Origin: a virus
DNA: 29,158 nucleotides
Virus record (IMG/VR): IMGVR_UViG_3300030104_000593
Span: 1 to 29,158 of that record
Strand: one strand, 5' to 3'
In this document: positions 6,771 to 21,931 of the stretch, in pieces
Position numbering within the stretch: the stretch's first letter is position 1
How the letters are laid out: each line of letters opens with the position of its first letter
Notes under the pieces: model-generated
Databases searched by the model: none
Told to the model about the DNA's origin: nothing
Seen by the model: only the letters and a program-made list of their open reading frames with translations
Made by a program: the position numbers and the translations under genes

Positions 6771-6781
6771 AATTTTTATTT

Positions 6782-7267
6782 TTAATAAGCACCTGTTGAT
6801 GTTACATATACAGCTTCGGTGTCTGTGTCATTAGTTGTGTATTCGGTATAAACTACAGGCTCACTAGATGAATGTGATAATCCATCAGCAACACTTAAAT
6901 TCATAACACCGTAATAGACTATATTTAATCCTGTAGGGTCTAGGTTTGCTGTTGCTGTATTTTCATATACTATTATATCATAAAATCCTAGCGGAAAATC
7001 TGTAGAACCAACATAGATTACCCCTTGTAATAAATTTTCTGCTGCTGAATTGGTTGTGCATAGTGTTTCTAGTTGCACATATCTTTCTTTCTTTGTAAAG
7101 TTAGCAGATGATGAATAAACTTTTGTATTAGATGTAAATTGACTTGTTATTCTAATCAAGGGTCTAAATGTGTTTGCTTTGTCATTAAATTTATCAAATA
7201 TATCTATTGACACCAAATTTTGGAATTGAAAGTCTAAAGGATTTTGTCTTACTTTAAATTGAAACAT
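6782..7267 (-). CDS. Tandem structural paralogue C (third of three)
   Basis: A 161-aa protein without signal peptide, predicted mostly beta. It shares a layout with the two genes immediately upstream: start MFQ, an IDIFDKF segment (about 23-29), a central KERYVQLE strand, DFPLGFYDIIVYEN (about 92-105), and an end motif NDTDTEAVYVT. No known family is recognised. It sits between the tail-tube gene and the portal, so a minor virion component (decoration, adaptor or fibre base) is plausible. It starts 2 nt after the stop of the preceding paralogue. Confidence 0.6.
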   Translation of the reverse strand: MFQFKVRQNPLDFQFQNLVSIDIFDKFNDKANTFRPLIRITSQFTSNTKVYSSSANFTKKERYVQLETLCTTNSAAENLLQGVIYVGSTDFPLGFYDIIVYENTATANLDPTGLNIVYYGVMNLSVADGLSHSSSEPVVYTEYTTNDTDTEAVYVTSTGAY

Positions 7268-7269
7268 AT

Positions 7270-7812
7270 CTAAAAAGTTATATATACAGACTGTGTGTCT
7301 GTGTCGTTATCTGTATATTTATCGTATTGTACTGATTCAAAATTTGTTGCATCAGAAGCAGTTGATCCTTCCATATTTAAAACCCCATTAAATAAAGTTG
7401 AGGTTATGTATTGTGGATCATTACTCACAGGGACGGCAGTAGTATATATGGTTACATCATAAAACCCTAAAGGGAAATCTACTGTTCCAACATTCATATT
7501 TGCTATCTGTAAATTTTCAGTTAAAACACCACCGGTAGAATAAAAGACTTTTATAGGAATAGAGCGTAAGTATTTATCTTCAGGACTAGTCCATCTTGGT
7601 CTATTGTTATTTCCAATTTTAAAAAAAGAAACGTATTTACTTTTTGATGTTGCTTGACTAGTAAATTGTACAAGGAGATTAGGTGATTGTAATACATATT
7701 CACCTGATACAAGTGACACACTTACACTATCCATTTTATCAAATAAATCACACTCCATTGTAAAGAAGTTGTTAAAGTTACTTTCGTTTTTTGATATTGT
7801 TGCTTGAAACAT
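7270..7812 (-). CDS. Tandem structural paralogue B (second of three)
   Basis: A 180-aa protein, the longest of the triplet. It keeps the shared landmarks MFQ at the start, CDLFDKM, DFPLGFYDVTIY in the C-terminal half, and NDTDTQSVYIT just before the stop. It differs by an insertion in the middle (around FFKIGNNNRPRW). Beta-rich, no Cys pattern or catalytic motif. It starts one base after the stop of paralogue A, so the three genes are tightly coupled. Their divergence is high, suggesting old duplications kept by selection rather than a recent assembly artefact. A virion role is inferred from position. Confidence 0.6.
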   Translation of the reverse strand: MFQATISKNESNFNNFFTMECDLFDKMDSVSVSLVSGEYVLQSPNLLVQFTSQATSKSKYVSFFKIGNNNRPRWTSPEDKYLRSIPIKVFYSTGGVLTENLQIANMNVGTVDFPLGFYDVTIYTTAVPVSNDPQYITSTLFNGVLNMEGSTASDATNFESVQYDKYTDNDTDTQSVYITF

Positions 7813-7813
7813 A

Positions 7814-8269
7814 TTACCCTGCTGTTATATATACTGCTTTATTATCTGTATCATTAGTACTATACTTATTATAATTTACTTCAGGTACTTCTTCACTTGA
7901 AACATTTGCTATCCCTTGATATGCGATACTTATAGTATTAGCAATATCAGTATTTAAATCTGCATTATTTTCATATATAGTCATATCATAAAATCCGTAA
8001 GGATAGTTTTTATTGCCAAAAGAAACTGTACCCACAGTCGGTAAAGGAATTTCGTCTATTGTTAATTGCATAGAAACATATCTTTCTTTATAAGTCCAAT
8101 CAATACCACTACCAAAAGCACCTATAAGTGATACATAACTTTTTTTAGTATATTGACTTTTTAAAACAACTAAAGGCGTAAATAAGTTTTGCTTATTAAC
8201 AAAGTTGTTCCAAATATCTATATTAAATGTAACTGTATTACTATCCGATTTTTTTATCAGTTGTACCAA
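7814..8269 (-). CDS. Tandem structural paralogue A (first of three), TTG start
   Basis: A 151-aa protein aligned with the other two copies by its start (MVQ versus MFQ), IDIWNNF, KERYVSMQ, NYPYGFYDMTIYEN and the closing NDTDNKAVYIT. The start codon is TTG at 8269. There is no ATG in the right place, and the Met-x-Gln start shared by the paralogues supports this choice. The gene overlaps the preceding 60-aa ORF by 29 nt, which favours coupled re-initiation at the weak codon. Product unknown; probably a minor structural protein. Confidence 0.58.
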   Translation of the reverse strand: MVQLIKKSDSNTVTFNIDIWNNFVNKQNLFTPLVVLKSQYTKKSYVSLIGAFGSGIDWTYKERYVSMQLTIDEIPLPTVGTVSFGNKNYPYGFYDMTIYENNADLNTDIANTISIAYQGIANVSSEEVPEVNYNKYSTNDTDNKAVYITAG

Positions 8270-8423
8270 TTTTATTTTTCTTTTTAGGTTTATCTTCTAT
8301 AAACAAACTATTTCTAACACTCTCGTTAAGTCTACTTATTTGCTTTTGTGTTAAGTCATCTAGTGGGATGTTGATGTTATCAATGCTTTTACCTTCCCAC
8401 TCTTTTTTTAATTTCCAAGCCAT
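8241..8423 (-). CDS. Small basic protein in the structural operon
   Basis: A 60-aa hydrophilic protein (MAWKLKKEWEGK..., then LDDLTQKQISRLNE at about 21-34, ending in a Lys-rich tail). Similar short proteins lie beside capsid or connector genes in other Bacteroidota phages (recollection), but no function is assigned. It is the first gene after the terminator at 8472-8496 and is preceded by a copy of the A/T-rich leader motif (8434-8445). Its 3' end overlaps the first paralogue gene by 29 nt. Confidence 0.55.
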   Translation of the reverse strand: MAWKLKKEWEGKSIDNINIPLDDLTQKQISRLNESVRNSLFIEDKPKKKNKIGTTDKKIG

Positions 8424-8433
8424 AGTATTTTAC

Positions 8434-8445
8434 TATAAATATAAA
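8434..8445 (-). promoter_or_regulatory. A/T-rich leader motif upstream of the 60-aa gene
   Basis: On the minus strand this reads TTTATATTTATA, ending 11 nt before the ATG. The same 12-mer (or 11 of 12) precedes three other genes that follow an intergenic gap (10861, 11898, 20417). Confidence 0.4.
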
Positions 8446-8471
8446 TTTTTAATTATTGTTTTTTAGTGTAC

Positions 8472-8496
8472 AAAAAAAGGGGCAAAAAACCCCTTT
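8472..8496 (-). terminator. Rho-independent terminator after the major tail protein gene
   Basis: The minus strand forms a perfect 7-bp stem AAAGGGG/CCCCTTT (8490-8496 with 8476-8482) around a 7-nt loop, followed by an uninterrupted run of T to 8472. It lies 23 nt beyond the stop of the 8519-9112 gene and in front of the 60-aa gene. It should limit transcription from the capsid and tail-tube genes into the paralogue/portal block. Confidence 0.88.
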
Positions 8497-8518
8497 CTTT
8501 ATCTATATAGAGTAACGA

Positions 8519-9112
8519 TTAAGTTCCAACTGTAATAGTAAGGTTAGCTTCATCAGAAAGTCCATCAAATGGAAATTTAGCTGTAGCAGCTCCAGCACTT
8601 GCAGGTAACTGTATTAAAGCATTTCTTTCTTCTGCACCCCATTCTATAGTGTATCCTGTTAAGTCACCTTTAGCAGTTCCTGTAATAACAGTACCACCTG
8701 TAACGTGACAACCACCATCAATTCCTAATAAAAATACATTGTCATTTTCATCTTGTACAAAAATTTGAGCTCTCGAATATGCCATAAGTCTAAGCTCATT
8801 AGTCATATCGTGGTCAATCTTTTGTAGAGTAACTGATAGCGTTTGATTAAAGAATGTTGTTCCATTAGCATTGTCTGAGTTTACATTTACAGTCATACTA
8901 GATAGATTAGGCACTAGGTCATACTTAAATACTTCAACAGTACCACCACAACAGCTCCAAGTTGCAAAACCTGCAGTAGCCATTTCAGTAGTATTAATAG
9001 TAGCAGCAGCAGACACATTATTACTATAAGATTTAGCAATAAAGATAGCCTTTAAACCACCTATACTGTCTTTACAGTCTATTAATCGTCCTCTTGTAAT
9101 ATCACAAGCCAT
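8519..9112 (-). CDS. Major tail (tube) protein
   Basis: A 197-aa protein whose N-terminus MACDITRGRLIDCKDSIGG and later features (NGTTFFNQTLSVTLQKI, LMAYSRAQIFVQDENDN, GIDGGCHVTGGTV with GTAKGDLTGY) match the tail-tube-like proteins I recall from Bacteroidota siphophages. It is predicted to be beta-rich and to stack as rings around the tape measure. It is isolated between two intrinsic terminators (9134-9164 upstream, 8472-8496 downstream), like the capsid gene beside it, as expected for a very abundant virion protein. The name rests on family recollection and position. Confidence 0.72.
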   Translation of the reverse strand: MACDITRGRLIDCKDSIGGLKAIFIAKSYSNNVSAAATINTTEMATAGFATWSCCGGTVEVFKYDLVPNLSSMTVNVNSDNANGTTFFNQTLSVTLQKIDHDMTNELRLMAYSRAQIFVQDENDNVFLLGIDGGCHVTGGTVITGTAKGDLTGYTIEWGAEERNALIQLPASAGAATAKFPFDGLSDEANLTITVGT

Positions 9113-9133
9113 ATTATTTTATTTATTAAAAGT

Positions 9134-9164
9134 TAAATAAAAGGGGAGTATATTACAACTCCCC
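9134..9164 (-). terminator. Rho-independent terminator after the major capsid gene
   Basis: The minus strand has a perfect 7-bp stem GGGGAGT/ACTCCCC (9158-9164 with 9143-9149), an 8-nt loop, then TTTTATTT. It lies just past the stop of the capsid gene at 9179. Because the tail-tube gene downstream has no clear promoter of its own, partial read-through is likely. Confidence 0.82.
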
Positions 9165-9178
9165 ATTTAAAGTATCTA

Positions 9179-10162
9179 TTATGTCCAAACAGTTGAACCG
9201 TAAACACCATCTGCTGCTACAGCACATTGAACACCAAGTGCAAAGTTCATTACAATTCTTACATTGTCAGAACCATCAAATTGGTAAGTTGGTATCACTC
9301 TTGCTTCTGTCCAATCAGTAGCTAGGTTTGTTCCAAATACTAAGTTCTCTTTGTAAGTTGCAACGATAACATCATCAAACATTCCGGGACATACGTAAAT
9401 TGGGAATCCAAAGTATGTAATGCCTTCAAATGATTGAGCAACACCTAAACTATTGATACCTTGATTAGAACCTGCGTTAGCTAGTGCTTGGATTAAGAAA
9501 GCATAAGTTTTAGAGTTCATATAGAAACCAAATCCGGGCTTAGAAGTCAAACCTGCAATACCAACTGCTGCATCATATACTGAAGCCATATCATCCAAAA
9601 TATCACTAGCAGCTAAAGCGTTAGCAAAATCTACTTCTGTAAAATCTTTAAGTTGACTTGCGTCTGCACCTGTTTCATCTAGAGTACCATCATTAGATAA
9701 GAAACCTGTTCCAAATGGAGAAGAACCTTTCCATATCATATTTTCAATATGTGCACCTGCTTTTCCTGCAACTGCTGATAATAAAAAGTCTTCGAATGTT
9801 CCGGGTAGGTTTCCGTTTCTGTCCATATTTTCGCCAATCCAAGTAGGAAAAATTGTTCCTCTACAAATTTCTTCGTTTACTTTCATATCAGTAAGCGTTA
9901 AAACTTGCTCAGTTAATGATGTGTCATTACTTGATGAAAAAGCACAAGCAGCAGCTACTACAGGGTCAGAAACTCCTAAGTTAGATATTACTGCTTTACT
10001 ATTTAAACCGTCTATTTGTCTTACATATCCTTTTGCAATCGTATCAGGAGATTTGACTGCAGCAGTCACATAAGGCAAAGCTAATTTACCTGCATAGGTG
10101 TTATCAGTTACGGTAATATCAAACTGATAATCTTTACTTAAATTATATTTATTATTTGCCAT
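9179..10162 (-). CDS. Major capsid protein (HK97-fold type)
   Basis: A 327-aa protein with no membrane segment. It follows a scaffold-like gene and a protease-like gene and precedes the tail-tube gene. Features fit capsid proteins of Bacteroidota phages: a central GFGFYMNSKTYAFLIQAL segment, FPIYVCPGMFDDVIVATYKENLVFGTNL, and a C-terminal strand NVRIVMNFALGVQCAVAADGVYGS. The length is right for an HK97-type subunit. An N-terminal processing site cannot be read from the sequence. Spacing of 8 bp from the scaffold gene and the terminator directly downstream suggest high, self-contained expression. Confidence 0.8.
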   Translation of the reverse strand: MANNKYNLSKDYQFDITVTDNTYAGKLALPYVTAAVKSPDTIAKGYVRQIDGLNSKAVISNLGVSDPVVAAACAFSSSNDTSLTEQVLTLTDMKVNEEICRGTIFPTWIGENMDRNGNLPGTFEDFLLSAVAGKAGAHIENMIWKGSSPFGTGFLSNDGTLDETGADASQLKDFTEVDFANALAASDILDDMASVYDAAVGIAGLTSKPGFGFYMNSKTYAFLIQALANAGSNQGINSLGVAQSFEGITYFGFPIYVCPGMFDDVIVATYKENLVFGTNLATDWTEARVIPTYQFDGSDNVRIVMNFALGVQCAVAADGVYGSTVWT

Positions 10163-10170
10163 TTTATTAT

Positions 10171-10854
10171 TTATTTATTGTTAATGTAATATGCTGCCCT
10201 CTCTTTAGTAGACAGTTTCTTTAAATCAATAGTTGAGTTGAAGTGTTCCCCTTCAGGATTGTATGATATACCTTCCGTAGCAGGTTCGCCACTTAATTCA
10301 ACTACTTTTCCTTTGAGTTCTTCTATCTGAGTCATAAGCTCACCGATAACTTCGCTAGACATTTCTGTCTTGTCTTCTTTTTCTTCAGATAACTCAGCAG
10401 ATGCTTCTACTTTATCAGCTTTTAAATCAGCTACAGCATCCTCTAAATTTTTGATTCTTATTTCCATACCTTTCCAATCAGCAACATCAGCTTCTTCAGC
10501 TAACTCCTCTTCTTTTGACTCCTCAGTAGTTTCCTCTTTAGATTCTTCAGAAAGCTCTTCTTCAGATGCTTCAACATCTTCAGCTTCTTTCTCTTCTCCT
10601 AAGTCTAGGATTTCAGATGATTCACCGATTGTCATTTTATTACCATTTTCCATAGTGTAGCTTCCTGCTTCTAATGGACTAGCTTCGCCATCATCACCGA
10701 CAGCAAAAACTTTAGAGCCGATCATAAACTGCTCATCTTCTGTAGCAAGTATACGACCATCCTCTAATTTCATTTCAGCGTAGAATTTTACGCTATAAGA
10801 TTTAGGTTCGTTTTTCATTTTTAAGATATTTAAAATTTTTTCTATTGTTCCCAT
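10171..10854 (-). CDS. Acidic scaffold-like protein
   Basis: A 227-aa, extremely acidic protein. The N-terminal part (1-75) looks like a small beta domain (VKFYAEMKLEDGRILATEDEQF, then AGSYTMENGNKM). Residues about 78-125 are a Glu/Ser/Lys low-complexity stretch, followed by helices likely to form a coiled coil (128-195, WKGMEIRIKNLEDAVADLKAD and MTQIEELKGKVVEL). The C-terminus is NSTIDLKKLSTKERAAYYINNK. Coiled-coil, acidic composition and position between the XkdF-type protease and the capsid gene support a capsid scaffold that is cleaved or expelled during head maturation. A copy of the A/T-rich leader motif lies 7 nt before its ATG. Confidence 0.68.
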   Translation of the reverse strand: MGTIEKILNILKMKNEPKSYSVKFYAEMKLEDGRILATEDEQFMIGSKVFAVGDDGEASPLEAGSYTMENGNKMTIGESSEILDLGEEKEAEDVEASEEELSEESKEETTEESKEEELAEEADVADWKGMEIRIKNLEDAVADLKADKVEASAELSEEKEDKTEMSSEVIGELMTQIEELKGKVVELSGEPATEGISYNPEGEHFNSTIDLKKLSTKERAAYYINNK

Positions 10855-10860
10855 AACATT

Positions 10861-10872
10861 AATAAATATAAA
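10861..10872 (-). promoter_or_regulatory. A/T-rich leader motif upstream of scaffold gene
   Basis: Minus strand TTTATATTTATT, 11 of 12 identical to the motif at 8434, 11898 and 20417, ending 6 nt before the ATG. Confidence 0.35.
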
Positions 10873-10895
10873 GGTGTTTAAATTGTTTATTTCTT

Positions 10896-11891
10896 TTAGC
10901 GTTTTACTGTTCTATTTTTGATGGCAGCACATACTTTGGCAGCAGTTTCTTTGTTGCCATATTGCTTCATTTGATCTCTCATACAATCATCCCAAGAATA
11001 CTTAAGCATCGCTTTCTTTTTAGCATAAGCAACATATTCTAGCATTTTGTATTTTCTCTTTCTTTTCTTCTTTCCTGTTTTTGCGTGTTCTTCTCGCATT
11101 GTAGCACTAGCGTGGTCATCACAAGGCATAAATAGTTTTACACCATCTACGGTATGTGGGTGACTACCTGAACAACCTTTAAACATCTCAGCATATAGCT
11201 CAGCTTCTTCTCTAGTTCTAAATAAAGGCTCACCATCTAAAGCTCCTACAGGTCTTAATTCATTTTCTAGGATAATATCTTTTATTTTACCCATCATCAC
11301 TTCATCAGGGCAATCTTCACAAACCTCATCTAATATATCTTTACTTTTAGATGCTTCTATTAATTTATCTGTAAAATATCCTTCTATACTAAATCCTCTC
11401 ACTTCTTTGTTTTTTATTGATTCCCAGATTTCAGGATTATTTTCAGCACTTACTTGAACAAACCAAGTGCCTAAAGGTAGATTTTTAAAGCCATACATAT
11501 TAGACTTATCATATTTCTTATCTTCCTTAATCCAAGACTCTACGACAGTTAATCCTTGTACAGGCTCTTTATGTTCAAAAGTGTGATTATTGTTGTTTAA
11601 ACTAGACATAAACAGCTTCTGTGCTTGTTTAATAGTTTCTTTAGTGAAGAAAACGTCGTACTCCTCGTTGGTTTCCTTGTCGAGTCTAGGAATTTTTTTA
11701 TCTGGAATAAGAATTGCTCCAATTAATTGTTTTTTCTCTTCATCTACTTTTGCAAGTGATAAAAAGTCATTATTGAAGAATACGAAGTTTTCCTCTATTG
11801 CAGGGAATTTTACAACGCTAATTGCATCAACCCCAAAGTAGTCTGCTGTTTCGTCTATTATTAGTTCTATAAGTTTTTTCTTTTTTGCCAT
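10896..11891 (-). CDS. XkdF-type prohead serine protease (Peptidase_S78_2-like) with Cys/His-rich C-terminus
   Basis: A 331-aa protein. Residues about 1-185 resemble the XkdF putative phage protease family: LIGAILIPDKKIPR (56-69), a His region NNHTFEHK (His103/His107), an ESWI strand, and RGFSIEGYF with candidate nucleophile Ser168. The C-terminal part has CSGSHPHTVDG...FMPCDDH (240-260), possibly metal-binding, and a final segment SWDDCMRDQMKQYGNKETAAKVCAAI. A protease next to scaffold and capsid genes would process the prohead. Catalytic residues are assigned by motif position only. The gene follows the tape measure, which is unusual, and is preceded by the A/T-rich leader motif. Confidence 0.72.
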   Translation of the reverse strand: MAKKKKLIELIIDETADYFGVDAISVVKFPAIEENFVFFNNDFLSLAKVDEEKKQLIGAILIPDKKIPRLDKETNEEYDVFFTKETIKQAQKLFMSSLNNNNHTFEHKEPVQGLTVVESWIKEDKKYDKSNMYGFKNLPLGTWFVQVSAENNPEIWESIKNKEVRGFSIEGYFTDKLIEASKSKDILDEVCEDCPDEVMMGKIKDIILENELRPVGALDGEPLFRTREEAELYAEMFKGCSGSHPHTVDGVKLFMPCDDHASATMREEHAKTGKKKRKRKYKMLEYVAYAKKKAMLKYSWDDCMRDQMKQYGNKETAAKVCAAIKNRTVKR

Positions 11892-11897
11892 AACATC

Positions 11898-11909
11898 TAT
11901 AAATATAAA
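11898..11909 (-). promoter_or_regulatory. A/T-rich leader motif upstream of protease gene
   Basis: Minus strand TTTATATTTATA, ending 6 nt before the ATG at 11891; identical to the copies at 8434 and 20417. Confidence 0.4.
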
Positions 11910-11923
11910 ATTGATTATTTTGT

Positions 11924-13324
11924 TTATATACTAGCTTGTGTATCTAATTCTTGCTGTAATGCTTGAGCGTTAGAAATGTTGCTTTCTACTACATACGCTT
12001 GTACAGGTTGTGAGTCATTAGCACCCCCTAATGTTGGTTGGTCTATTGCTTCCATATTAGGTGTCAAAGGTCCCATTCCTCCCGGTGTAGGAACATCAGG
12101 TGCAGCTCCTCCTCCTCCTCCTCCACCATCTGCTCCGGGAAGTTTTGTTGATAATATCTTTTTTACATTAGCCATTCCTGCCGCCACTGCACCTACTGCA
12201 GCTATTGGTCCGAATATAGGACCTGCTCCCACAGGTGGTGGTGCTAGTGCTGCCGTTGCTGCACTATAAGTATTTATTAATGCCTGACCTACAGCTAATG
12301 CTTTACCTGCTTTAGATTCCTCACCTATTAAAGAAGCAATATCACCCATAGCACTTGCTACGATACTTCTACGCGTATTATTTAAATGTCTTTCTATTTT
12401 AATTTCTGCTTCAGCAGTTTCCATTGCAGTTTTTACTCTAATAATACCTGTTTCCTTTATAGCATTCTGCAAAAGTGTTTCATTATTAACAGCATCTAGT
12501 GTAATTGCTTTTTCCTGCTCCCCTTTCTTTTTACTATCAGCTAGTAATTCCCTTTCCATTGTATTTACTTCTCTTGTAACTCTTAATTGCCTTTGTGTTG
12601 AAGCTGTCTGTAAATCAATTAAAGCAGCTCTTTCATTTGCTAGATTTTGCATATCTTCTTCGCTTGATTTACCTAAATCAATAACCTTCTGCAATGCGTC
12701 TACTTTTCTTTCTTGTATATCTAACTCTATTTGTGCTACTCTTTGTTCTTCTTTAACTGCTGCTTTTAAAGCTACAAGTCGATCCTCTAAACTTCTTGTT
12801 TCATCTTCAGCTAATAATCTAGATTCTGCAATTACTTTATTTGCTTGTGCTCTTACTATCACCATTTCCCTTTCTGAATCTCTTACAGCTTGAAGCTGTC
12901 TTGTTAATTCTGCCATTGCTTTAGATTCTTCTCGTATCTCTGCTGTAGTTCCTGTAAAAGCTTCTTTAAATGCTTGTAAAGGATTTTTAAGTTTTATTAA
13001 TGATCTAATAAAATCTTCTGCTCTATCTCTAATAACATCAAATGCTGCACTTAGTTGAGAAGTTATTCTTTCAAACATTCTAGCAGTTTCTATATTACCA
13101 CTAAAAATATCTTTTAACTTTACAAAGGCAGCAACAATTAAACCTATTCCAAGAGCTTTAAATGCAACCCCTAACCCTTTTGCTGCACCTGTCATTTTAC
13201 TAAAAGCACCTTTAGATGCAATTGCACCTTTATTAGTATCTTGAACTCCCTTGTTTAGTTTATCAACTTGTTTTATGCCGTCTTTAGCATCTATATTTAT
13301 TTTTACATTTTTCTCTACCGCCAT
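11924..13324 (-). CDS. Tape measure protein (short)
   Basis: A 466-aa protein with the usual layout. The N-terminus has Lys/Asp-rich repeats (VKINIDAKDGIKQVDKLNKG). One hydrophobic, membrane-like segment follows (about 49-68, LGVAFKALGIGLIVAAF). A long charged helical region (about 85-320) is likely coiled coil. The end is Ala/Gly/Pro-rich with a Gly7 run. At roughly 0.15 nm per residue, a general rule for tape measures, the tail would be about 70 nm. It overlaps the 57-aa gene upstream by 10 nt. It is flanked by large tail-tip genes upstream and by head genes downstream. Confidence 0.82.
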   Translation of the reverse strand: MAVEKNVKINIDAKDGIKQVDKLNKGVQDTNKGAIASKGAFSKMTGAAKGLGVAFKALGIGLIVAAFVKLKDIFSGNIETARMFERITSQLSAAFDVIRDRAEDFIRSLIKLKNPLQAFKEAFTGTTAEIREESKAMAELTRQLQAVRDSEREMVIVRAQANKVIAESRLLAEDETRSLEDRLVALKAAVKEEQRVAQIELDIQERKVDALQKVIDLGKSSEEDMQNLANERAALIDLQTASTQRQLRVTREVNTMERELLADSKKKGEQEKAITLDAVNNETLLQNAIKETGIIRVKTAMETAEAEIKIERHLNNTRRSIVASAMGDIASLIGEESKAGKALAVGQALINTYSAATAALAPPPVGAGPIFGPIAAVGAVAAGMANVKKILSTKLPGADGGGGGGGAAPDVPTPGGMGPLTPNMEAIDQPTLGGANDSQPVQAYVVESNISNAQALQQELDTQASI

Positions 13325-13488
13325 ATTATTCTAATTATTTGTTTAAACATTCTTCTAAAACTTGTGTGGTATTCTTCCATACCATAAGCGAAATCTAATT
13401 CTTTATTTTTATGTTCTACTAATTGAATATGGTCAATAGTAGGTATAATTAATTTTGCTGTTGATTCTATATATTTTTTTAATTCCAT
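13315..13488 (-). CDS. Small protein coupled to the tape measure gene
   Basis: A 57-aa basic protein beginning MELKKYIES, with no recognised family. The ATG at 13488 is chosen over one at 13545, because it overlaps the stop of the 1228-aa gene by 10 nt, like its neighbours, whereas the longer version would overlap by 67 nt. Its stop overlaps the tape measure start by 10 nt. A short coupled gene directly before a tape measure could act in tail assembly, but nothing in the sequence proves this. Confidence 0.55.
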   Translation of the reverse strand: MELKKYIESTAKLIIPTIDHIQLVEHKNKELDFAYGMEEYHTSFRRMFKQIIRIIWR

Positions 13489-16400
13489 ACTAAGTATTCT
13501 CCGTTTTGTAATTCTATATAAACTAAATTTTGATATAAAGCCCATTTTGTATCAAAAGGAATAGACATATTAGGAACTTCATTTATATCTAATTCTACTT
13601 CTAATTGCCAAACCCTTTTAGTGTCAGCTTGTGTGTCTTTTAATCCAAACTCTATTACATTGTCAGTTTCACATAATACAAACAATGAACAGGATGTTGT
13701 TTTACCTGCTTCTGTTAAGGCGTACTCTAAATCACCCCCTCTAGTTCCAATAAGCGTAACAGTTTCTCCATCAGTTTGTCTAAATCCTAAAGAATATGCT
13801 ACTATCTCTGTATTACCTAGAGGGTATGTTGTAGATGTTCCTCCTACTACAGTAGCAATAGCTTTTATTCTAAGGTTAACTATAGAACTGCTTGGCATTC
13901 TTACTTTAGGTGCTGTAGGTTGACCGTTAATATATGCGTAACCTATAGTAGTTCCTTCTGTATAACCCATTAACACAAACCTATGGCTTTCACCTGCTAA
14001 TGAAGGTGTTGTTCTATTATAGTTTTTATATTTTATTTTAAAATCATCACCCATATGTGTTAATATGGATTTTGTAAATTTATCAGTATCAGTACCAATC
14101 ATTAACGGCTTTCCCCTTCCGTTTAATTTATTTTCTATTATATCTCTTAAATTACCTTTACTTAGTACCGCTCTAGGTCTATTATATAACTCTTTTTTTT
14201 GTATTGGTAAGCTACCTGTATTAGCAAGACAAGTTCCTGTTCCTGGAGTCCAATTTTCATAAACTCCTGGTTGCCCTGCCCATATTAGAGCTTCCCACTC
14301 TCCGCCATTACATTCACAACAAGCCCCTGTAGTTGAAAGATACTGATAACCACTTAAAAGCATAGGGTTGCAATCAGGGTCATCTTCAGGACACCACGCA
14401 AAATATCCATTAACTAAACTAGGACCTCCTGCCAAATTAGTAGCAACCACTTGGTCGCAATTGTGGCAAGTTTCTAAAAAAATTTCTGGAACCTTAATGA
14501 GTGTTACCTTAGTAGATGATACTACACCTACCTGATAGTTATTTATATTTAAAACACGCCAATATGTATCTTTAATAAATATCTCATCACCGAAGTTTAA
14601 ATTGTGTATATCTACTTCATTTAAATTTAGGTAACATTCCATTATCCTAGTGTCCTCATTGTATATCTGATTAAAATAGGTTTGCCAATACTCATAGTAT
14701 AAGCTCTGTCCTATAACAAGACCTGGATTAGAATTAAATACCAATAACTCCCCTGCTGGTGGTGGTTGCTGTGACCAATACAAAGATTTAGTATTTATAG
14801 TAATTGTTGAGCTTCCTGAACTAGCATCTAAGTCATAAGGACTACATAGGGGGTAATCATTAAATTGGTAGTATATCACAGTACCTTCAGAATTAAAGCC
14901 ATGTAAATAGTAATTATCAACATAATCTGTGACAGGTGTCTTTGAACCACTATAATAATATATTTTAGGTTTAGTAGCTTCAAAAGCATCTTCATAACTT
15001 CCTTGACCTACTCTTTTATAAGTATATTCATATTGTACCGCCATATTAGGAATAGCAGAAACCCAATTTTCATTGTTACCTCTAAAAACCTTTTCATTGA
15101 TATAAGGTGAAAAAATAGAACTACTTTTCATCTCACCATTAGCAAATTGATTTTGCGTGTTTAATATATTTACATTACCAAAGACATTTAAATCAGGTGC
15201 ATCTTCTTTAATTGACTTATTCCATAAATCGACATCTTCAAGGTCAGTTAAGTTAATCCTTTGTTTTTGTAATGAAGTAGCATCTTTTACTATAATTTCT
15301 TTTGATAAGTCTATTTTATCAGTCCAATGTTTTAAATCCCCACTAGCTATAAAGTCGTTATAAGGCTCTACAATAACTCCTGAAGGGTTATCAGGGTCAG
15401 GGATAACTACTAAATTAAATCTACTAATTAAGTCTTTTAAAAATGATTTCTGTGTTATTTCAGGGTCTATGCAATTTAATATATCTACTTCCTTGTCATA
15501 AACACCATCACCTAATCCTAGCCATTTAACCTCTAGCTTTACCCTTAGGTCTGTATTTTGAAGGTCAAGGTTTCCTAATAATAATTGAGCGGTATTAGAG
15601 TCATTATCTTTTTTAAAGCTATAAGGTCTACAGTAAATCTGACAACGCTCACCAACAGGGACATTTGTTATATCTAAATCAACGTCTACCCAAAAATTAC
15701 CACTCGCACTAGTTTGGTTTCCTATAAGTTGCGTTACTGTCTGAAGGTCTGAACCCCCTAATGTTCGCACTTTAAATTGCATTTCTATACCATCTCCACA
15801 TTGCTTGATATTACTACGAGAAACATTAAATCTAACATTCATACTAGTCATATTAATATCATCTCTTTTAAAAGAATTTGTGGCGGTACTCCATAAACCA
15901 TAGTTGTCTTGTGGTATAGTGTAACCTGAAGAAGGTGTTGTACTGTCAGCAGGTATTAATATCCAACTAGTATAGTTTGTTAATGAACCCCAACCCGGGT
16001 CACTAACTGCCATATTACTACAGCCAATATCTTGGTCTGCTGCAAATACGTATGTTTTAAAAGATGTACTATTACCAATTGTGCATTGTCCATCAACAGC
16101 TCCTGCTGAAGAACTTACAGTTGGAAAAGGTCTACCTGTATGGTTGCAGGTAGTCATAAATAACTTACGAAAATAAGCACTACCTAAAAATGTAGATTTT
16201 AAATAAAATCCTGCTTTAGCAAAAATAAGGTCTAGTAGCGTTCTTAGTTGTATTGCAGGTTTCAGTTGAGAAATAGGGACCATATACTGCTCCGCATTTT
16301 CTCCTTGAGCTGCAATGTCATTCATAGCAAGGTATCTATTAGAGTCAGAACTTTCGTACCAAAATTTTGGCACACTTATAGACATAGGGTACATTACCTT

Positions 16401-17165
16401 TTGTACTCCACCTACTGAATCTCTTAACGATACATCAAATACATCTAAAAAACTTGAAGAAGAACCATCCCAAGAATATCCTATATTAGCATAGTTAAAA
16501 TTGTGATTTAATTCTCTAGTTGGTATATTGTTATCATCCAAAAATAAATCTCTTAATTTCTTGCTACCAATTGCTGTAAAAAGGTCTGCTGTATTAGACA
16601 TTAACACGACTTCATAAAGTTGTGCTTTTTGGTATACTGCCTTTAATTGTATAAATCCATCAAACTGTGTTAAGCCCCCAACAGAAAGATTTGCATTAAA
16701 TCTTTTTTTAGTGCTAAACTCTAAAGTTGATAAATTAACATTAAACCAATTTTGAAAGAAATTATTATTGTTATCAGTAAATGGAAGTTTAAATGTTTGT
16801 GAAAAACTACCCTTCCTTTTCTCAGGTTCTTTAATATCAGCAAATTGAAAGTTAAGGCTTACATTAGGTTGCTCTTGAAAATCTAATTGATAAGTATCTT
16901 CTTTTGCAATATAAAAAGCATCGGAAGCTGTAAGAGGGGTATTAAGACTATGTAAGTCTATGCTTGTAGCAGAATTTATTTGCTTAATAATTCCATAAAC
17001 TTGATTGCTTGCATTTATTAAAACCTCTCCTACTGACAATGTTGTTGTAGCATCTGAACCTGATGTGGTTATAGTTATAGGCGTGATGTTAGTTCCTGAA
17101 GTTGATGATGACGTAACACCTGTTATATAAGGATTATTTCTATATACCTCTAATCTTACTTTCAT
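13479..17165 (-). CDS. Large tail-tip / baseplate hub-like protein
   Basis: A 1228-aa protein, the largest in the genome. After a Thr/Ser-rich N-terminal region (about 17-90) comes a conserved-looking block (about 94-185) with LDFQEQPNVSLNFQFADIKE, KGSFSQTFKLPFT and FNANLSVGG, a pattern of baseplate or distal-tail proteins in Bacteroidota phages (recollection). The middle region includes further beta-rich modules. A Cys-rich segment occurs around residues 900-980 (CHNC, CPEDDPDC, CCEC), possibly disulphide- or metal-stabilised. The C-terminus is beta-rich. It is probably part of the tail tip that contacts the cell. The ATG shares one base with the stop of the 486-aa tail gene (TAATG). Confidence 0.68.
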   Translation of the reverse strand: MKVRLEVYRNNPYITGVTSSSTSGTNITPITITTSGSDATTTLSVGEVLINASNQVYGIIKQINSATSIDLHSLNTPLTASDAFYIAKEDTYQLDFQEQPNVSLNFQFADIKEPEKRKGSFSQTFKLPFTDNNNNFFQNWFNVNLSTLEFSTKKRFNANLSVGGLTQFDGFIQLKAVYQKAQLYEVVLMSNTADLFTAIGSKKLRDLFLDDNNIPTRELNHNFNYANIGYSWDGSSSSFLDVFDVSLRDSVGGVQKVMYPMSISVPKFWYESSDSNRYLAMNDIAAQGENAEQYMVPISQLKPAIQLRTLLDLIFAKAGFYLKSTFLGSAYFRKLFMTTCNHTGRPFPTVSSSAGAVDGQCTIGNSTSFKTYVFAADQDIGCSNMAVSDPGWGSLTNYTSWILIPADSTTPSSGYTIPQDNYGLWSTATNSFKRDDINMTSMNVRFNVSRSNIKQCGDGIEMQFKVRTLGGSDLQTVTQLIGNQTSASGNFWVDVDLDITNVPVGERCQIYCRPYSFKKDNDSNTAQLLLGNLDLQNTDLRVKLEVKWLGLGDGVYDKEVDILNCIDPEITQKSFLKDLISRFNLVVIPDPDNPSGVIVEPYNDFIASGDLKHWTDKIDLSKEIIVKDATSLQKQRINLTDLEDVDLWNKSIKEDAPDLNVFGNVNILNTQNQFANGEMKSSSIFSPYINEKVFRGNNENWVSAIPNMAVQYEYTYKRVGQGSYEDAFEATKPKIYYYSGSKTPVTDYVDNYYLHGFNSEGTVIYYQFNDYPLCSPYDLDASSGSSTITINTKSLYWSQQPPPAGELLVFNSNPGLVIGQSLYYEYWQTYFNQIYNEDTRIMECYLNLNEVDIHNLNFGDEIFIKDTYWRVLNINNYQVGVVSSTKVTLIKVPEIFLETCHNCDQVVATNLAGGPSLVNGYFAWCPEDDPDCNPMLLSGYQYLSTTGACCECNGGEWEALIWAGQPGVYENWTPGTGTCLANTGSLPIQKKELYNRPRAVLSKGNLRDIIENKLNGRGKPLMIGTDTDKFTKSILTHMGDDFKIKYKNYNRTTPSLAGESHRFVLMGYTEGTTIGYAYINGQPTAPKVRMPSSSIVNLRIKAIATVVGGTSTTYPLGNTEIVAYSLGFRQTDGETVTLIGTRGGDLEYALTEAGKTTSCSLFVLCETDNVIEFGLKDTQADTKRVWQLEVELDINEVPNMSIPFDTKWALYQNLVYIELQNGEYLVWN

Positions 17166-18625
17166 TATGAATTAGTATTATATGGGTTAGCATATTCTAT
17201 ATTGATTGTGTATTGTATTAGTTTATCATTTGCAACTGTTTTTTTAACTAAGCTAGAGTCTGTTATTAAAACAGGCTGTTCTACATCTGTTTCTGCATTT
17301 TGCACCAACACAATGTTGTTAGATAGTAAACAGCTTTCTATTAGTTCTGCATCACCTTCTGTCATCCAATCAGTGTTTAAAATTTCTTTTCTTTTTGCTG
17401 TTACTTTTCTTACTGTTTTACCTCTATCAAAATCATCATACCTCCAAGAACTTTTGTTAAATGTACCAAGAACTTTATTATATTGGTCTCTTTCAATATC
17501 TATAGTCATTGTAGACTTCATTTTAAAATTATAATAATCATATCCACCAACCTTATTAGTCCAACCTAAACGCCTAACAACAAAACCTTTGCAACTACCA
17601 TCTTCTTTTACAAAATTATATGTAGCCGTTTTATAAGTTATTGTTCCTGTATTATTACTAGTTCCTCTAATAGTATAATATGCCCACCCTGAATTGTTAC
17701 TAGGTTGAGCATCTGGTTCAACTGACTGCTCTTCTAAATTTTTAGGACCACAACCAAAATATAATAATCTAGTTGCATTAGTTATACTACTACTGTCATT
17801 TGGTGGCATTCCCCCATTAGCACTAGTGTTTGCTATATATTCTTTGTCATTAATTTGAGCATTTGATGAATCATAGTAAACTATTTCTATATAATGTAAA
17901 CCAGAGTCATACTGAGCGAAATCGTTTAAAAAAGCGACAGTATGATAATCACTTTCCCTAACTTTGTTAATATAACCTGACAAACCATAAGAACCTGTGT
18001 TGTCAGATGTTGCATCACTTAGAAATTGACGTGTTGAAGAGCGAGGGGTATAAACATTAAAAGCTGTACTTTGAATGTAAGTACCTGAGTCACTTCTAGC
18101 TTGAGTAAGTGGTAGGGATGCTTGAACATAGTACAGTGTGTTAGTTACAGCCCCTGTATATACATTTCCGGGTGATACACTTGCAGACTCAGAATAGTTT
18201 TGATATGCTTGAATAGTAAAAGGTGCTATTTGTGTTTTGCCTAGTGTTACACTTCCACTTGCACTAAATGGTAACGTAGCTGTATTATCACCTATAGAGT
18301 GTATTGAAGCAAAAGGGTAATTATTGTCATTTTGGTCGTATAATGTTGGAACTAATTGTGTGTTTACAATATCTCTTAAATCAAAAAAAGCTCTTGCTCT
18401 GTTATTTGAAACATCATCACTATATCCGTTTCTTCTTTGTTTTATTACCGCCAATAATGTTCCTGACGTATTCGTTCCTGCATAAACATCAACAACTAAT
18501 TTATAATAAAAAAAACCTGAAATACTAGACTGATAAATCATATAACCTATCAGGGGTGTCCAATTTGTGATAACAGGTGCTAAAGACGTTGTGTTTATTG
18601 GATATTGTACTATTGAAGGTGCCAT
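17165..18625 (-). CDS. Tail-associated structural protein
   Basis: A 486-aa, beta-rich protein rich in Tyr, Ser, Thr and Asn. The C-terminal third has features I recall from tail proteins of Bacteroidota phages: RRLGWTNKVGGYDYYNFKMK, then IERDQYNK, KTVRKVTAKRKEILNTDW, and a final segment ending in IQYTINIEYANPYN. No enzymatic motif. It sits between a gp10-like neck/tail-completion gene (3-nt gap) and the large tail-tip gene (1-nt overlap), so it is probably a tail-tip or baseplate component translated in step with both. Confidence 0.6.
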   Translation of the reverse strand: MAPSIVQYPINTTSLAPVITNWTPLIGYMIYQSSISGFFYYKLVVDVYAGTNTSGTLLAVIKQRRNGYSDDVSNNRARAFFDLRDIVNTQLVPTLYDQNDNNYPFASIHSIGDNTATLPFSASGSVTLGKTQIAPFTIQAYQNYSESASVSPGNVYTGAVTNTLYYVQASLPLTQARSDSGTYIQSTAFNVYTPRSSTRQFLSDATSDNTGSYGLSGYINKVRESDYHTVAFLNDFAQYDSGLHYIEIVYYDSSNAQINDKEYIANTSANGGMPPNDSSSITNATRLLYFGCGPKNLEEQSVEPDAQPSNNSGWAYYTIRGTSNNTGTITYKTATYNFVKEDGSCKGFVVRRLGWTNKVGGYDYYNFKMKSTMTIDIERDQYNKVLGTFNKSSWRYDDFDRGKTVRKVTAKRKEILNTDWMTEGDAELIESCLLSNNIVLVQNAETDVEQPVLITDSSLVKKTVANDKLIQYTINIEYANPYNTNS

Positions 18626-18628
18626 ACT

Positions 18629-19189
18629 TTATTGTTTTAATGCTTGTTCTAATGCTAATTCTAAATCATCAGCAAAAGCCTTTGTTATTGTTTCTGTTTG
18701 TTTGTTAAATTGTTGTGTAAATGGTTTACTAAAGAATTGTGTTCTTTCTAAACCTCTTTGAAATATAGAACGCTGAATTAAAAACACTAAGCTCTTTCTT
18801 TTTATAAATTTACCATTTTTATCTCTTGCTTCTTTAAGTGGTTTACCAACTACCCATCTATCTATTTTAGCTTTAAAACTTTGCCAAGTTCCTCTAAACT
18901 TACCACTCCCAAACTTATAATCACTACCTTGCCCTCTTGCTCTTCCTGATCCTTTAAATCCACCTACACCTTTTACACCTTCATCGACAAATTGCCAATA
19001 ATCCTCAGCACCACCAAATTCAAATTCTAATGTTACTTCATTTTGGGATGAGGTTACTATATAATCAAAGTCATTATATAATGTATTTCTACTTGTAGTC
19101 TTTTTCTTACGTTTAAGAATACTACGTCCTTCTTTGACTACACTTCGCCCTAGATTCTGTAAAGATTGTATTGTATTTTTAAACTCCAT
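18629..19189 (-). CDS. Tail completion / HK97 gp10-like neck protein
   Basis: A 186-aa basic protein. The N-terminal helix (FKNTIQSLQNLGRSVVKEGR) is followed by a beta region and the motif YWQFVDEGVKG (about 64-74), a hallmark of HK97 gp10-type neck proteins. A Gly/Lys/Arg-rich loop and a helical C-terminus follow. It probably binds the end of the tail tube or the connector. It starts at the base where the tail-terminator-like gene stops (1-nt overlap), which agrees with the usual pairing of neck, terminator and chaperone genes. Confidence 0.62.
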   Translation of the reverse strand: MEFKNTIQSLQNLGRSVVKEGRSILKRKKKTTSRNTLYNDFDYIVTSSQNEVTLEFEFGGAEDYWQFVDEGVKGVGGFKGSGRARGQGSDYKFGSGKFRGTWQSFKAKIDRWVVGKPLKEARDKNGKFIKRKSLVFLIQRSIFQRGLERTQFFSKPFTQQFNKQTETITKAFADDLELALEQALKQ

Positions 19190-19680
19190 CAGCTATTAGG
19201 TGTTATTGGTACTATACAAAGGTTATTAGAGTTGTTAACGTCTACACTAATAGTAGCACTCCATCCTGTTAAAATGTTGTTAAAACGAGCTGTAAATGGC
19301 TCACAAGTTATAGGTGTCTGTAATACTACTTGATTATCTACCCAAGAAGTAGAATATAGTGAGTGTTTAAATTCATTAATAACATCTTGAAGTATTTGTA
19401 ATGTTTCTGAATAAGCATCTACACGTCCTTCTCTTTCTTTATTAGGAGCATCACCAACAACATCATTAATCATATCCATTACATAAATAGTAAACGAATA
19501 AGTCATCACTCCTGTGTTAACTGTAGCAGAACCGGGTTCGGCATATAGAATAACATAATCAGTAGCACCTAATTTATTAATATCTACCTCATCCATTTGT
19601 CCTGAATGAAAGCTATTTATTTCACTATGCTTTGATGCTATTGTTTCAAAATATCCTACTACATTTCTAAAAGTTATCAT
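19189..19680 (-). CDS. Tail terminator-like protein
   Basis: A 163-aa alpha/beta protein: an N-terminal helix (FRNVVGYFETIASKHSEINSF), VILYAEPGS, YSFTIYVMDMINDVV, a long central helix (ETLQILQDVINEFKH), and a C-terminal sheet ending LTGWSATISVDV. This strand-helix-strand plan and the neighbours fit a gpU-like tail terminator that caps the tail tube. Its ATG lies inside the end of the 53-aa ORF upstream (14-nt overlap). The family call is based on architecture and synteny only. Confidence 0.55.
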   Translation of the reverse strand: MITFRNVVGYFETIASKHSEINSFHSGQMDEVDINKLGATDYVILYAEPGSATVNTGVMTYSFTIYVMDMINDVVGDAPNKEREGRVDAYSETLQILQDVINEFKHSLYSTSWVDNQVVLQTPITCEPFTARFNNILTGWSATISVDVNNSNNLCIVPITPNS

Positions 19681-19828
19681 AATTGCTACGTTGTTTGTTA
19701 TTATAATCTTGACTATATGCTAAGTAAGTAAGCACTTCCAAAATTGGTAATCTAGTTATTTTATCTATGTCTAGTATTGAATTAGATAAGCTGTAGAGGA
19801 CATTATACCATCCCCACTTAGAACTCAT
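19667..19828 (-). CDS. 53-aa WGWY-motif ORF, probable frameshift extension of the tail assembly chaperone
   Basis: MSSKWGWYNVLYSLSN begins this short ORF, which ends in NYDNF. Its ATG lies 2 nt after the TGA of the upstream 193-aa gene. The frame is open far beyond the ATG: read in the -1 frame of the upstream gene it has no stop back to a T9 run at 19907-19915. It can therefore be either a separate coupled gene or the C-terminal part of a 248-aa frameshift product. The WGWY segment followed by ITRLPILEVLTYLAY looks like the C-terminal domain of chaperone-like proteins in related phages (recollection). Confidence 0.65.
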   Translation of the reverse strand: MSSKWGWYNVLYSLSNSILDIDKITRLPILEVLTYLAYSQDYNNKQRSNYDNF

Positions 19829-19830
19829 TG

Positions 19831-20412
19831 TCACACCTTTTGTTGTGTCGTGTTCTGAGCTACTAAAAATTGCTGCGAAATCTTCGCCAATTCGCTTCCT
19901 AAAGTCAAAAAAAAACCTAAGCTACTTAATGCTATACTCATAGGACATTCTTTGAACAATTCCTCTTTAAATTGGTCAGGATCATAAGGTTCTATAGCGT
20001 ATCTATCATTGACCTTATGTGTCACCTTTCTATATAGTATTGACATTATAGTATGTAAATTCTCAATAGGTTCTTTACAATATGCTTCTAAATCAATATA
20101 TTCTCCTGTGCTTAATTTATTTAAATTAGGACAGAAGCCATATTCCACTCCTTTCAAGGTGAATAGTTTTTTAAAGTCATCTTCTGTTGGCTCTGTGTCT
20201 ATCATTGCTTTGACAATGTTCATAATATCTAGCAAATCTGTGTATGCCATTTTCTTAACTACAAATGGGCTAGTGCCACATAATAAAGCAAGGCTTCTTA
20301 TTACCTTGTTTTTGTCACTTCCCTTGCCTTCTTGAATTTTTACATATTGCTGATAAGTGTCTATTGTTATGTCATTCCAATTATCAGGTATTGTTAGTTT
20401 CACCTCTTTCAT
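19831..20412 (-). CDS. Tail assembly chaperone-like protein (0-frame product)
   Basis: A 193-aa protein starting MKEVKLTIPDNWNDITIDTYQQ, mostly helical, with LALLCGTSPF, MSILYRKVTHKVNDRY and SLGFFLTLGSELAKI near the end. The type is common after terminase genes in Bacteroidota phages (recollection) and is positioned like a tail assembly chaperone, before terminator and tail genes. Codons 167-169 are TTT TTT TTG inside a run of nine T. A -1 slip there would replace the last 25 residues with 80 others and fuse it to the WGWY ORF, giving 248 aa, analogous to the G/GT pair of lambda. A leader motif copy precedes the ATG. Confidence 0.62.
   Translation of the reverse strand: MKEVKLTIPDNWNDITIDTYQQYVKIQEGKGSDKNKVIRSLALLCGTSPFVVKKMAYTDLLDIMNIVKAMIDTEPTEDDFKKLFTLKGVEYGFCPNLNKLSTGEYIDLEAYCKEPIENLHTIMSILYRKVTHKVNDRYAIEPYDPDQFKEELFKECPMSIALSSLGFFLTLGSELAKISQQFLVAQNTTQQKV
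19907..19915 (-). other. Candidate -1 ribosomal frameshift site (T9 run)
   Basis: The minus strand reads GGT TTT TTT TTG in the zero frame, containing the slippery heptamer T TTT TTT. In the -1 frame a TAG lies at 19922-19924, immediately upstream, and then no stop occurs until 19667. The alternative frame therefore opens right at the slip site. A single-base error in the homopolymer would create the same picture. Confidence 0.62.
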
Positions 20413-20416
20413 TACT

Positions 20417-20428
20417 TATAAATATAAA
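20417..20428 (-). promoter_or_regulatory. A/T-rich leader motif upstream of chaperone-like gene
   Basis: Minus strand TTTATATTTATA, ending 4 nt before the ATG at 20412; identical to the copies at 8434 and 11898. Confidence 0.4.
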
Positions 20429-20445
20429 ATGTTAATTTTTGTTTT

Positions 20446-21603
20446 TTATAGAATATAATACTTGCCACTATGATTAATACTTAGCTTGTTTAAACATAAA
20501 TATCTTGTTGCATCTACCAAATGGTCATTAACCTTAACGGGTGCATTAAGAACATCACCATTCTTATCAGTTGCCCACTTATAACTCCTAAATTCTTTTA
20601 TTGCATTTAAGCTATCTTTTGTGATATGTAGTTTATATCTTCTCATTATGTCAATGCCTAAATGTATTCCTGCTCCCTTCTTTGCAGGTTTTATGTTAAA
20701 TCCTTGTCTGTATATTTCTTCTATTGATTTAGGTTCTGCTGAATCCCCCACTATTTCTGTTTGCCTATCAATACCAAATTCTCTGAGCTTATTTGCTAAG
20801 TCTGTATTTGTTAACCTTTTCTCATACAGTAATTCTTTAATATATAAATTATCATCTAATTGCCTTACTTCTACTAATGCTGTTGGACTATTAGTAAATC
20901 CAAAATCTAAACCATAACCAATTAATCTTCCTTGTACATCATCTACTAAATTAAAGTTTCTAAATATAGCAGTTTGTATTGTTCCTATTTCACCAAGTCC
21001 ATATACACGCCAATAGTCAGGATCAATGTCTTTTAGTCTTTCTATCTCTGCTATTGTATCCTCATCTAAAAATGGATTAGCTCTATATGTAGATTTTAAG
21101 AATGTGCAATCATCTCTTGTGTGTACTTTCTCATATATCCAAGAATATGGATCGGAAGGGTTGTAGTCTAAGTATATCTTTTCTGTTGTTCTAAGTATTA
21201 ACTGTTGCCAATCTTCATAGTTAAATTCATTTGCCTCATTACACCAAAGGTAGTGTCTTTTTCTACCGCGTATCTTGACAGGTTGGTCAACTGAAATAAA
21301 CTCTAATAGATTGCCATTGAGGGTATATGATAATTCTGATTTGTTGTGATTAGCTTCATTATAAAGCTCTAGTTCTTTAAGGATAGAAATTACATCTCTA
21401 TATGCTGTACCTTTTAAGGCAGGTAGTGTCTTTCTGCATATCGTAAATACTTTGCCTGTTTCTTCTAAGCATTTGACAATAAATAACTGACAAAGCGAAT
21501 AGGTCTTGCTAGAACGCGTACCCCCCTGTAAGCACGTTATTCTAGTGGTTGACCCATACGCCTTGTGAAATACATTAGTAGTTTTAATCTTGCCCCGTAT
21601 CAA
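20446..21603 (-). CDS. terL: Terminase large subunit
   Basis: A 385-aa packaging ATPase/nuclease. ATPase: Walker A GGTRSSKT (27-34) and a Walker B region YLWCNEAN (118-125). Nuclease: Asp233 in GLDFGFTNSP, Asp287 in VGDSAEPKSIEE, and Asp364 in NDHLVDATRY, the RNase H-like acidic triad. It resembles the PBSX/Terminase_3 group. The start is TTG at 21603, overlapping the small-subunit gene by 20 nt; no ATG or GTG occurs between this codon and the Walker A motif. Length is a little short for the family (often 400-450) but complete. It packages DNA into proheads with the small subunit and portal. Confidence 0.92.
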   Translation of the reverse strand: MIRGKIKTTNVFHKAYGSTTRITCLQGGTRSSKTYSLCQLFIVKCLEETGKVFTICRKTLPALKGTAYRDVISILKELELYNEANHNKSELSYTLNGNLLEFISVDQPVKIRGRKRHYLWCNEANEFNYEDWQQLILRTTEKIYLDYNPSDPYSWIYEKVHTRDDCTFLKSTYRANPFLDEDTIAEIERLKDIDPDYWRVYGLGEIGTIQTAIFRNFNLVDDVQGRLIGYGLDFGFTNSPTALVEVRQLDDNLYIKELLYEKRLTNTDLANKLREFGIDRQTEIVGDSAEPKSIEEIYRQGFNIKPAKKGAGIHLGIDIMRRYKLHITKDSLNAIKEFRSYKWATDKNGDVLNAPVKVNDHLVDATRYLCLNKLSINHSGKYYIL

Positions 21604-21931
21604 TAACTTCTATTTTAAGTTCTGTAAGTGCTTTGCCCCCACTTGTAATATCTAACTTCTCAGCATAACCTCTTTCTTTAGCTTTAGATTTCAAATAAAA
21701 GATGATACTTGTTTCTTTACCATCTGATATGTTTTTTATTAACTGTCCTTCTACATAATCAATCTGAGCTTCTTTAATATCTTCTACTGCTTTGGCAAAT
21801 TCTTCATCTTCTCTCATATACCTATAGTATGTACTTCTACTTATATTACCTGCCTTTTTACAAGCGTGATATATTAATCCCTGCGTTTCTTGTAACGCTT
21901 TTAATAATCTTTCTTTTTTATCGTGTGCCAT
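21584..21931 (-). CDS. terS: Terminase small subunit
   Basis: A 115-aa protein with an N-terminal helix-turn-helix: LLKALQETQGLIYHACKKAG followed by ISRSTYYRYMREDEEF (about 9-45), the recurrent form of small-terminase DNA-binding domains. A helical oligomerisation region (about 46-85, VEDIKEAQIDYVEGQLIKNI) and a short C-terminal beta tail (LKIEVIDTG) follow. It recognises the packaging site and recruits the large subunit, whose gene begins inside its 3' end. The packaging site itself could not be located. Confidence 0.85.
   Translation of the reverse strand: MAHDKKERLLKALQETQGLIYHACKKAGNISRSTYYRYMREDEEFAKAVEDIKEAQIDYVEGQLIKNISDGKETSIIFYLKSKAKERGYAEKLDITSGGKALTELKIEVIDTGQD

Follow-up and report, generated by a model that had tools for sequence, protein, structure and literature searches.

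A predicted −1 recoded, two-form gene with a conserved run of nine or more T in a large group of aquatic phages

Introduction

Production of two protein forms from a single gene through −1 recoding is classically found in tail assembly chaperones (PMC5009743, PMC3711429, PMC6316719). In a large share of bacterial genomes, selection against transcriptional slippage becomes apparent once a run reaches nine (PMC1088944).

The gene analyzed here lies in a 29,158-base virus contig (IMG/VR record IMGVR_UViG_3300030104_000593), the whole of which is referred to as the window. An initial annotation of its sequence had proposed a programmed −1 frameshift in a tail assembly chaperone gene. A literature search, with subscription journals mostly outside its reach, brought up no earlier description of the frameshift. 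The gene is divided between PHROGs 32199 and 38404, existing annotations list it as one or two hypothetical proteins, and public viral contigs contain several hundred or more members of its wider family. Uniting both parts would give a testable function to two families that have none assigned.

Gene organization and slip site

The 0-frame gene encodes 193 amino acids on the minus strand (19831..20412), forms the shared N-terminal part and corresponds to PHROG 32199, of unknown function. Close to its 3' end, it contains a run of nine T on the same strand (19907..19915), confirmed in the phase GGT TTT TTT TTG, with an in-phase T_TTT_TTT inside. After the slip site, the −1 frame extension covers 19667..19909 on the minus strand, stop codon included, and carries the WGWY domain, the 3' part of which is PHROG 38404, also of unknown function. 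Between the TAG at 19924-19922 and the TAG at 19669-19667, this frame holds 84 sense codons and reads through the ATG of the WGWY open reading frame at 19828-19826. In-silico translation that moves back one base at TTT TTT yields a 248-amino-acid product, confirming both the open frame down to 19667 and the fusion that the initial annotation had described. Its further statement that the −1 frame opens exactly at the slip site holds in the window, where a TAG lies close upstream (19922..19924, minus strand), and in some relatives only; the other relatives have this stop further upstream.

The terminase large subunit gene (20446..21603, minus strand) is directly upstream, and a tape-measure-like gene of PHROG 9483 (11924..13324, minus strand) is several genes downstream, an arrangement at odds with the lambda-like gene position assumed earlier. 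The structural genes at window 4620-21931 run in the order terminase, recoded gene, tail genes, tape measure, protease, capsid and portal, similar to the order in the annotated Bacteroides phage BKO1-1. The gp3 of BKO1-1, which occupies the same position after terminase, was considered as a relative and set aside, as the profile does not match it. Elsewhere in the window, three neighboring open reading frames of 161, 180 and 151 amino acids (6782-8269) have the appearance of tandem paralogs, with similar C-terminal motifs (TNDTDTEAVYVT and its variants). At 5259-5268, the coding strand of a 716-amino-acid portal-like gene has ten consecutive A (T10 on the plus strand), in contrast to the rest of these contigs, where runs of ten A occur at about a tenth of expectation.

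Conservation and coding selection

A first homolog scan of genome contigs found none. The first IMG/VR search yielded 80 close homologs. Each has exactly T9, and its −1 frame is uninterrupted for as much of it as the contig covers, two contigs ending within this frame; one of the homologs, contig 3300030372_002186, encodes an identical 193-amino-acid protein and the same −1 extension. Two wider searches confirmed at least 597 and at least 578 rows as relatives of the query. Pooling yielded 342 unique homologous loci among the matches listed, once a further row (L579), taken as a chance match in another frame, had been left out. The run is T9 in 257 of these loci, T10 in 84 and T11 in one; it occurs in all three codon phases, and the WGWY frame stands at −1 throughout. 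The arrangement recurs in two cultured phages of Nonlabens, P12024S and P12024L, whose genomes were sequenced from isolates; identity is about 29%, T9 is in another codon phase (CTT TTT TTT TAT), and the annotation gives two hypothetical proteins. Phages of this kind are aquatic, and hundreds of related phages keep the run at T9–T11.

When the overlap is reshuffled synonymously in 38 representatives, the −1 frame stays free of stops in a median of about 20% of trials per sequence, whereas all 38 real sequences are open. The 0-frame synonymous difference drops by about half, from 0.38 upstream to 0.17-0.21 in the overlap. Position 3 of the 0-frame falls from 0.40 to 0.24, and the freest overlap site is 0-frame position 2, equivalent to −1 position 3, at 0.31 versus 0.11 upstream. 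Amino-acid identity in the overlap is higher in the −1 frame (0.67) than in the 0-frame (0.61). The reshuffling and site comparisons show that selection acts on the −1 frame, including the stretch between the slip site and the ATG. In distant relatives, the 0-frame often extends 70-139 bases beyond the first WGWY codons, and start codons are frequently missing; in most of loci L176-L219 the extension is 124 or 139 bases, so that much of the WGWY domain is coded in two frames.

Single-frame relatives

The 0-frame profile matches a 191-amino-acid gene of Flavobacterium phage 6H. Relatives of the 6H gene are single open reading frames of 259-301 amino acids, annotated as hypothetical, in Flavobacterium phages FPSV-F7 and laban6-1, Cellulophaga phage Ingeline, Polaribacter phage Leef and Microcystis phage Mea-Yong924-1. 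When a profile is built from the in-silico fusions, its alignment to the single-frame proteins of cultured phages, mostly phages of flavobacteria, crosses the junction and spans 224 columns (E 4.6e-13). With the 0-frame profile, the alignment ends at FF, where the slip site lies, and the −1 part by itself matches more weakly (E 3.5e-4, probability 37%). The homolog comparison suggested by the initial annotation thus finds cultured relatives with both parts in one frame, which contradicts the idea that the parts are always separate genes; as judged from these alignments, the two-part architecture is common to the recoded gene and its single-frame relatives. The 6H gene itself (191 amino acids, L541:10352-10927) and the FPSV-F7 gene (293 amino acids, L545:4001-4882) diverge near RARCFFYSTR versus RAKFFQRQHIG; the divergence may be genuine or may reflect an error in the sequence.

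The conserved run, the dual-frame selection and the homology of the fusion profile together make it nearly certain that recoding would yield the fusion, and they support the earlier proposal that a programmed −1 event joins the WGWY part to the 193-amino-acid product.

Mechanism of recoding

Ordinary expression of the gene would supply the 193-amino-acid form, and a programmed −1 frame change at T9 would supply the 248-amino-acid form, probably minor, with the WGWY domain appended. The kept signal would be the run of at least nine T, at which RNA polymerase would add one extra U and thereby place the ribosome in the −1 frame. This slippage of RNA polymerase is somewhat favored as the main mechanism. 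Conservation of run length at nine or more, beyond the heptamer alone, makes transcriptional slippage at least as likely as the ribosomal frameshift that the initial annotation had assumed; its −1 recoding stands, and its choice of the ribosome as slipping agent is no longer secure.

A classical programmed ribosomal −1 frameshift, with tandem slippage at the in-phase U_UUU_UUU, is a close and only slightly less probable rival, and under it the length of nine would reflect the heptamer plus neighboring amino acids (a hydrophobic residue before, an aromatic residue or Leu after). An in-phase T_TTT_TTT is present in every homolog and could be used by the ribosome, but any T9 contains an in-phase heptamer, which makes its presence weak evidence. 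Runs shorter than nine T are absent in the three codon phases in the homologs among the matches listed, and a T8 scan found no homolog among the 120 sites listed. T's lost on one side of the run are balanced by T's gained on the other in two groups, GGT with TTG and CGG with TTT. These gains and losses, which also speak against the ribosome, arose independently only a small number of times, and the heptamer, too, would require the one in the CGG group.

An exhaustive scan for T7C, that is, U_UUU_UUC alone, found 45 sites and no homolog among them. In the main distant group, this change is silent in both frames and 34% of Phe codons are TTC, yet TTC at the A-site occurs only behind T10 or T11; the tree implies six or more switches between the T and C states. 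Ribosomal slippage would explain the absence of T7C too if it needs U as the last base. The 77 homologs that match the pattern TTTTTTTC carry T10 or T11 followed by C; a reading of them as broken runs, which would have favored ribosomal slippage, was therefore rejected.

Long runs are scarce elsewhere in these contigs. Runs of nine or more A occur at 0.21-0.24 of the synonymous-shuffle expectation in all phases (A7, 0.89-0.98), and T9 or longer occurs 3 times against about 8 expected, a count for which the filter removing the recoded gene may have removed a few others too. Replication slippage could also produce such avoidance, which is therefore not specific to slippage by RNA polymerase. In-phase T7 is tolerated, with 86 occurrences in other genes, and this fits a ribosomal site. 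The shift is always −1, while polymerase slippage can go either way, which likewise favors the ribosome. Known tail-chaperone frameshifts are ribosomal, the putative SPP1 site included (PMC6316719). On the other side, U_UUU_UUU is weak in E. coli, being reported as less shift-prone there than A_AAA_AAG (PMC5009743). The region downstream shows no conspicuous structure in 12 sequences, and Rfam gives no match; this is a further point against the ribosome, although neither route needs such a structure.

Predicted function

By analogy, the two products probably act like tail assembly chaperones. As in lambda gpG/gpGT, the shared part would act on the tape-measure protein and the appended part would recruit the tail-tube protein. 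The likeness that we consider probable is one of working, and membership in the G/GT family is not claimed. The recoded gene has no match in Pfam, NCBIfam, PDB sequences or PDB folds. The AlphaFold2 model of the 193-amino-acid form is confident (pLDDT 84), and that of the −1 part shows helices at low confidence. A BFVD fold search with the 193-amino-acid model returned its own relatives and one annotated chaperone, the latter weakly (E 0.05).

A genuinely recoded gene with another role, for example as a neck or other assembly protein, is rather unlikely. Such a role would suit a gene that sits just after terminase, lacks a match to known chaperone families and has single-frame relatives making the long form only. 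However, a two-form −1 recoded gene and a tape-measure gene in one phage are the usual sign of a chaperone, the weak BFVD match points the same way, and the relative in Cellulophaga phage Ingeline sits shortly before the tape-measure gene.

Start codon of the WGWY part and integrity of the run

The WGWY part might instead be a separate small gene read from its own ATG (19826..19828, minus strand, first base 19828), with an incidental overlap. This ATG adjoins the 0-frame stop in the window and in most close homologs, and both PHROGs and the Nonlabens phage annotation split the part off. Yet the ATG is replaced by CTA or TTA in six close homologs, which have no other ATG, GTG or TTG before WGWY. 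Such a start is likewise missing ahead of WGWY in 97 of 211 homologs, and selection on the −1 frame extends between the slip site and the ATG. A separate gene is thus very improbable, although some phages may use additional internal starts. The alternative raised in the initial annotation, that the T run is a sequencing or assembly indel in a continuous gene, is hardly credible: homopolymers are error-prone and distant relatives are continuous, but the −1 offset is kept with T9–T11 by 342 unique loci from many samples (among the matches listed) and by the Nonlabens phages sequenced from isolates, and the overlap is under dual-frame selection.

Comparison with known systems

We tentatively propose that a large group of aquatic phages may set the ratio of its tail-chaperone forms by RNA-polymerase slippage at T9–T11 instead of ribosomal frameshifting, related phages being single-frame. 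To our knowledge, no tail-chaperone gene has been reported to use transcriptional slippage. The run-length rule raises the question of whether a phage can set a structural ratio through transcription rather than translation, and a further question is how single-frame relatives manage without the short form.

Lambda gpG/gpGT comprises a short and a −1 extended form with a common N-terminal part in a tailed phage (PMC5009743), and the same is predicted here. The two systems differ in that no sequence or fold similarity was detected between them, and the slip site is T9 here and another site in lambda. The lambda gene lies directly before the tape-measure gene, whereas the gene described here lies directly after terminase. 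For SPP1 gp17.5/gp17.5*, the comparison concerns the slip site only: a putative −1 shift is described at the U-rich heptamer UUUUUUC (PMC6316719), while the homologs here keep at least nine T, and the exhaustive T7C scan did not find UUUUUUC alone. Transcriptional slippage at A9 or T9 in bacterial genes and IS elements (PMC1088944) resembles the present case in using a run of at least nine as its signal and in the avoidance of long runs in other genes; here the likeness is drawn from DNA. A further comparison is with FPSV-F7, laban6-1, Ingeline, Leef and Mea-Yong924-1, which have homologous N- and C-terminal parts in the same order. Their frame is uninterrupted and encodes the long form alone, whereas the recoded phages are predicted to have two forms.
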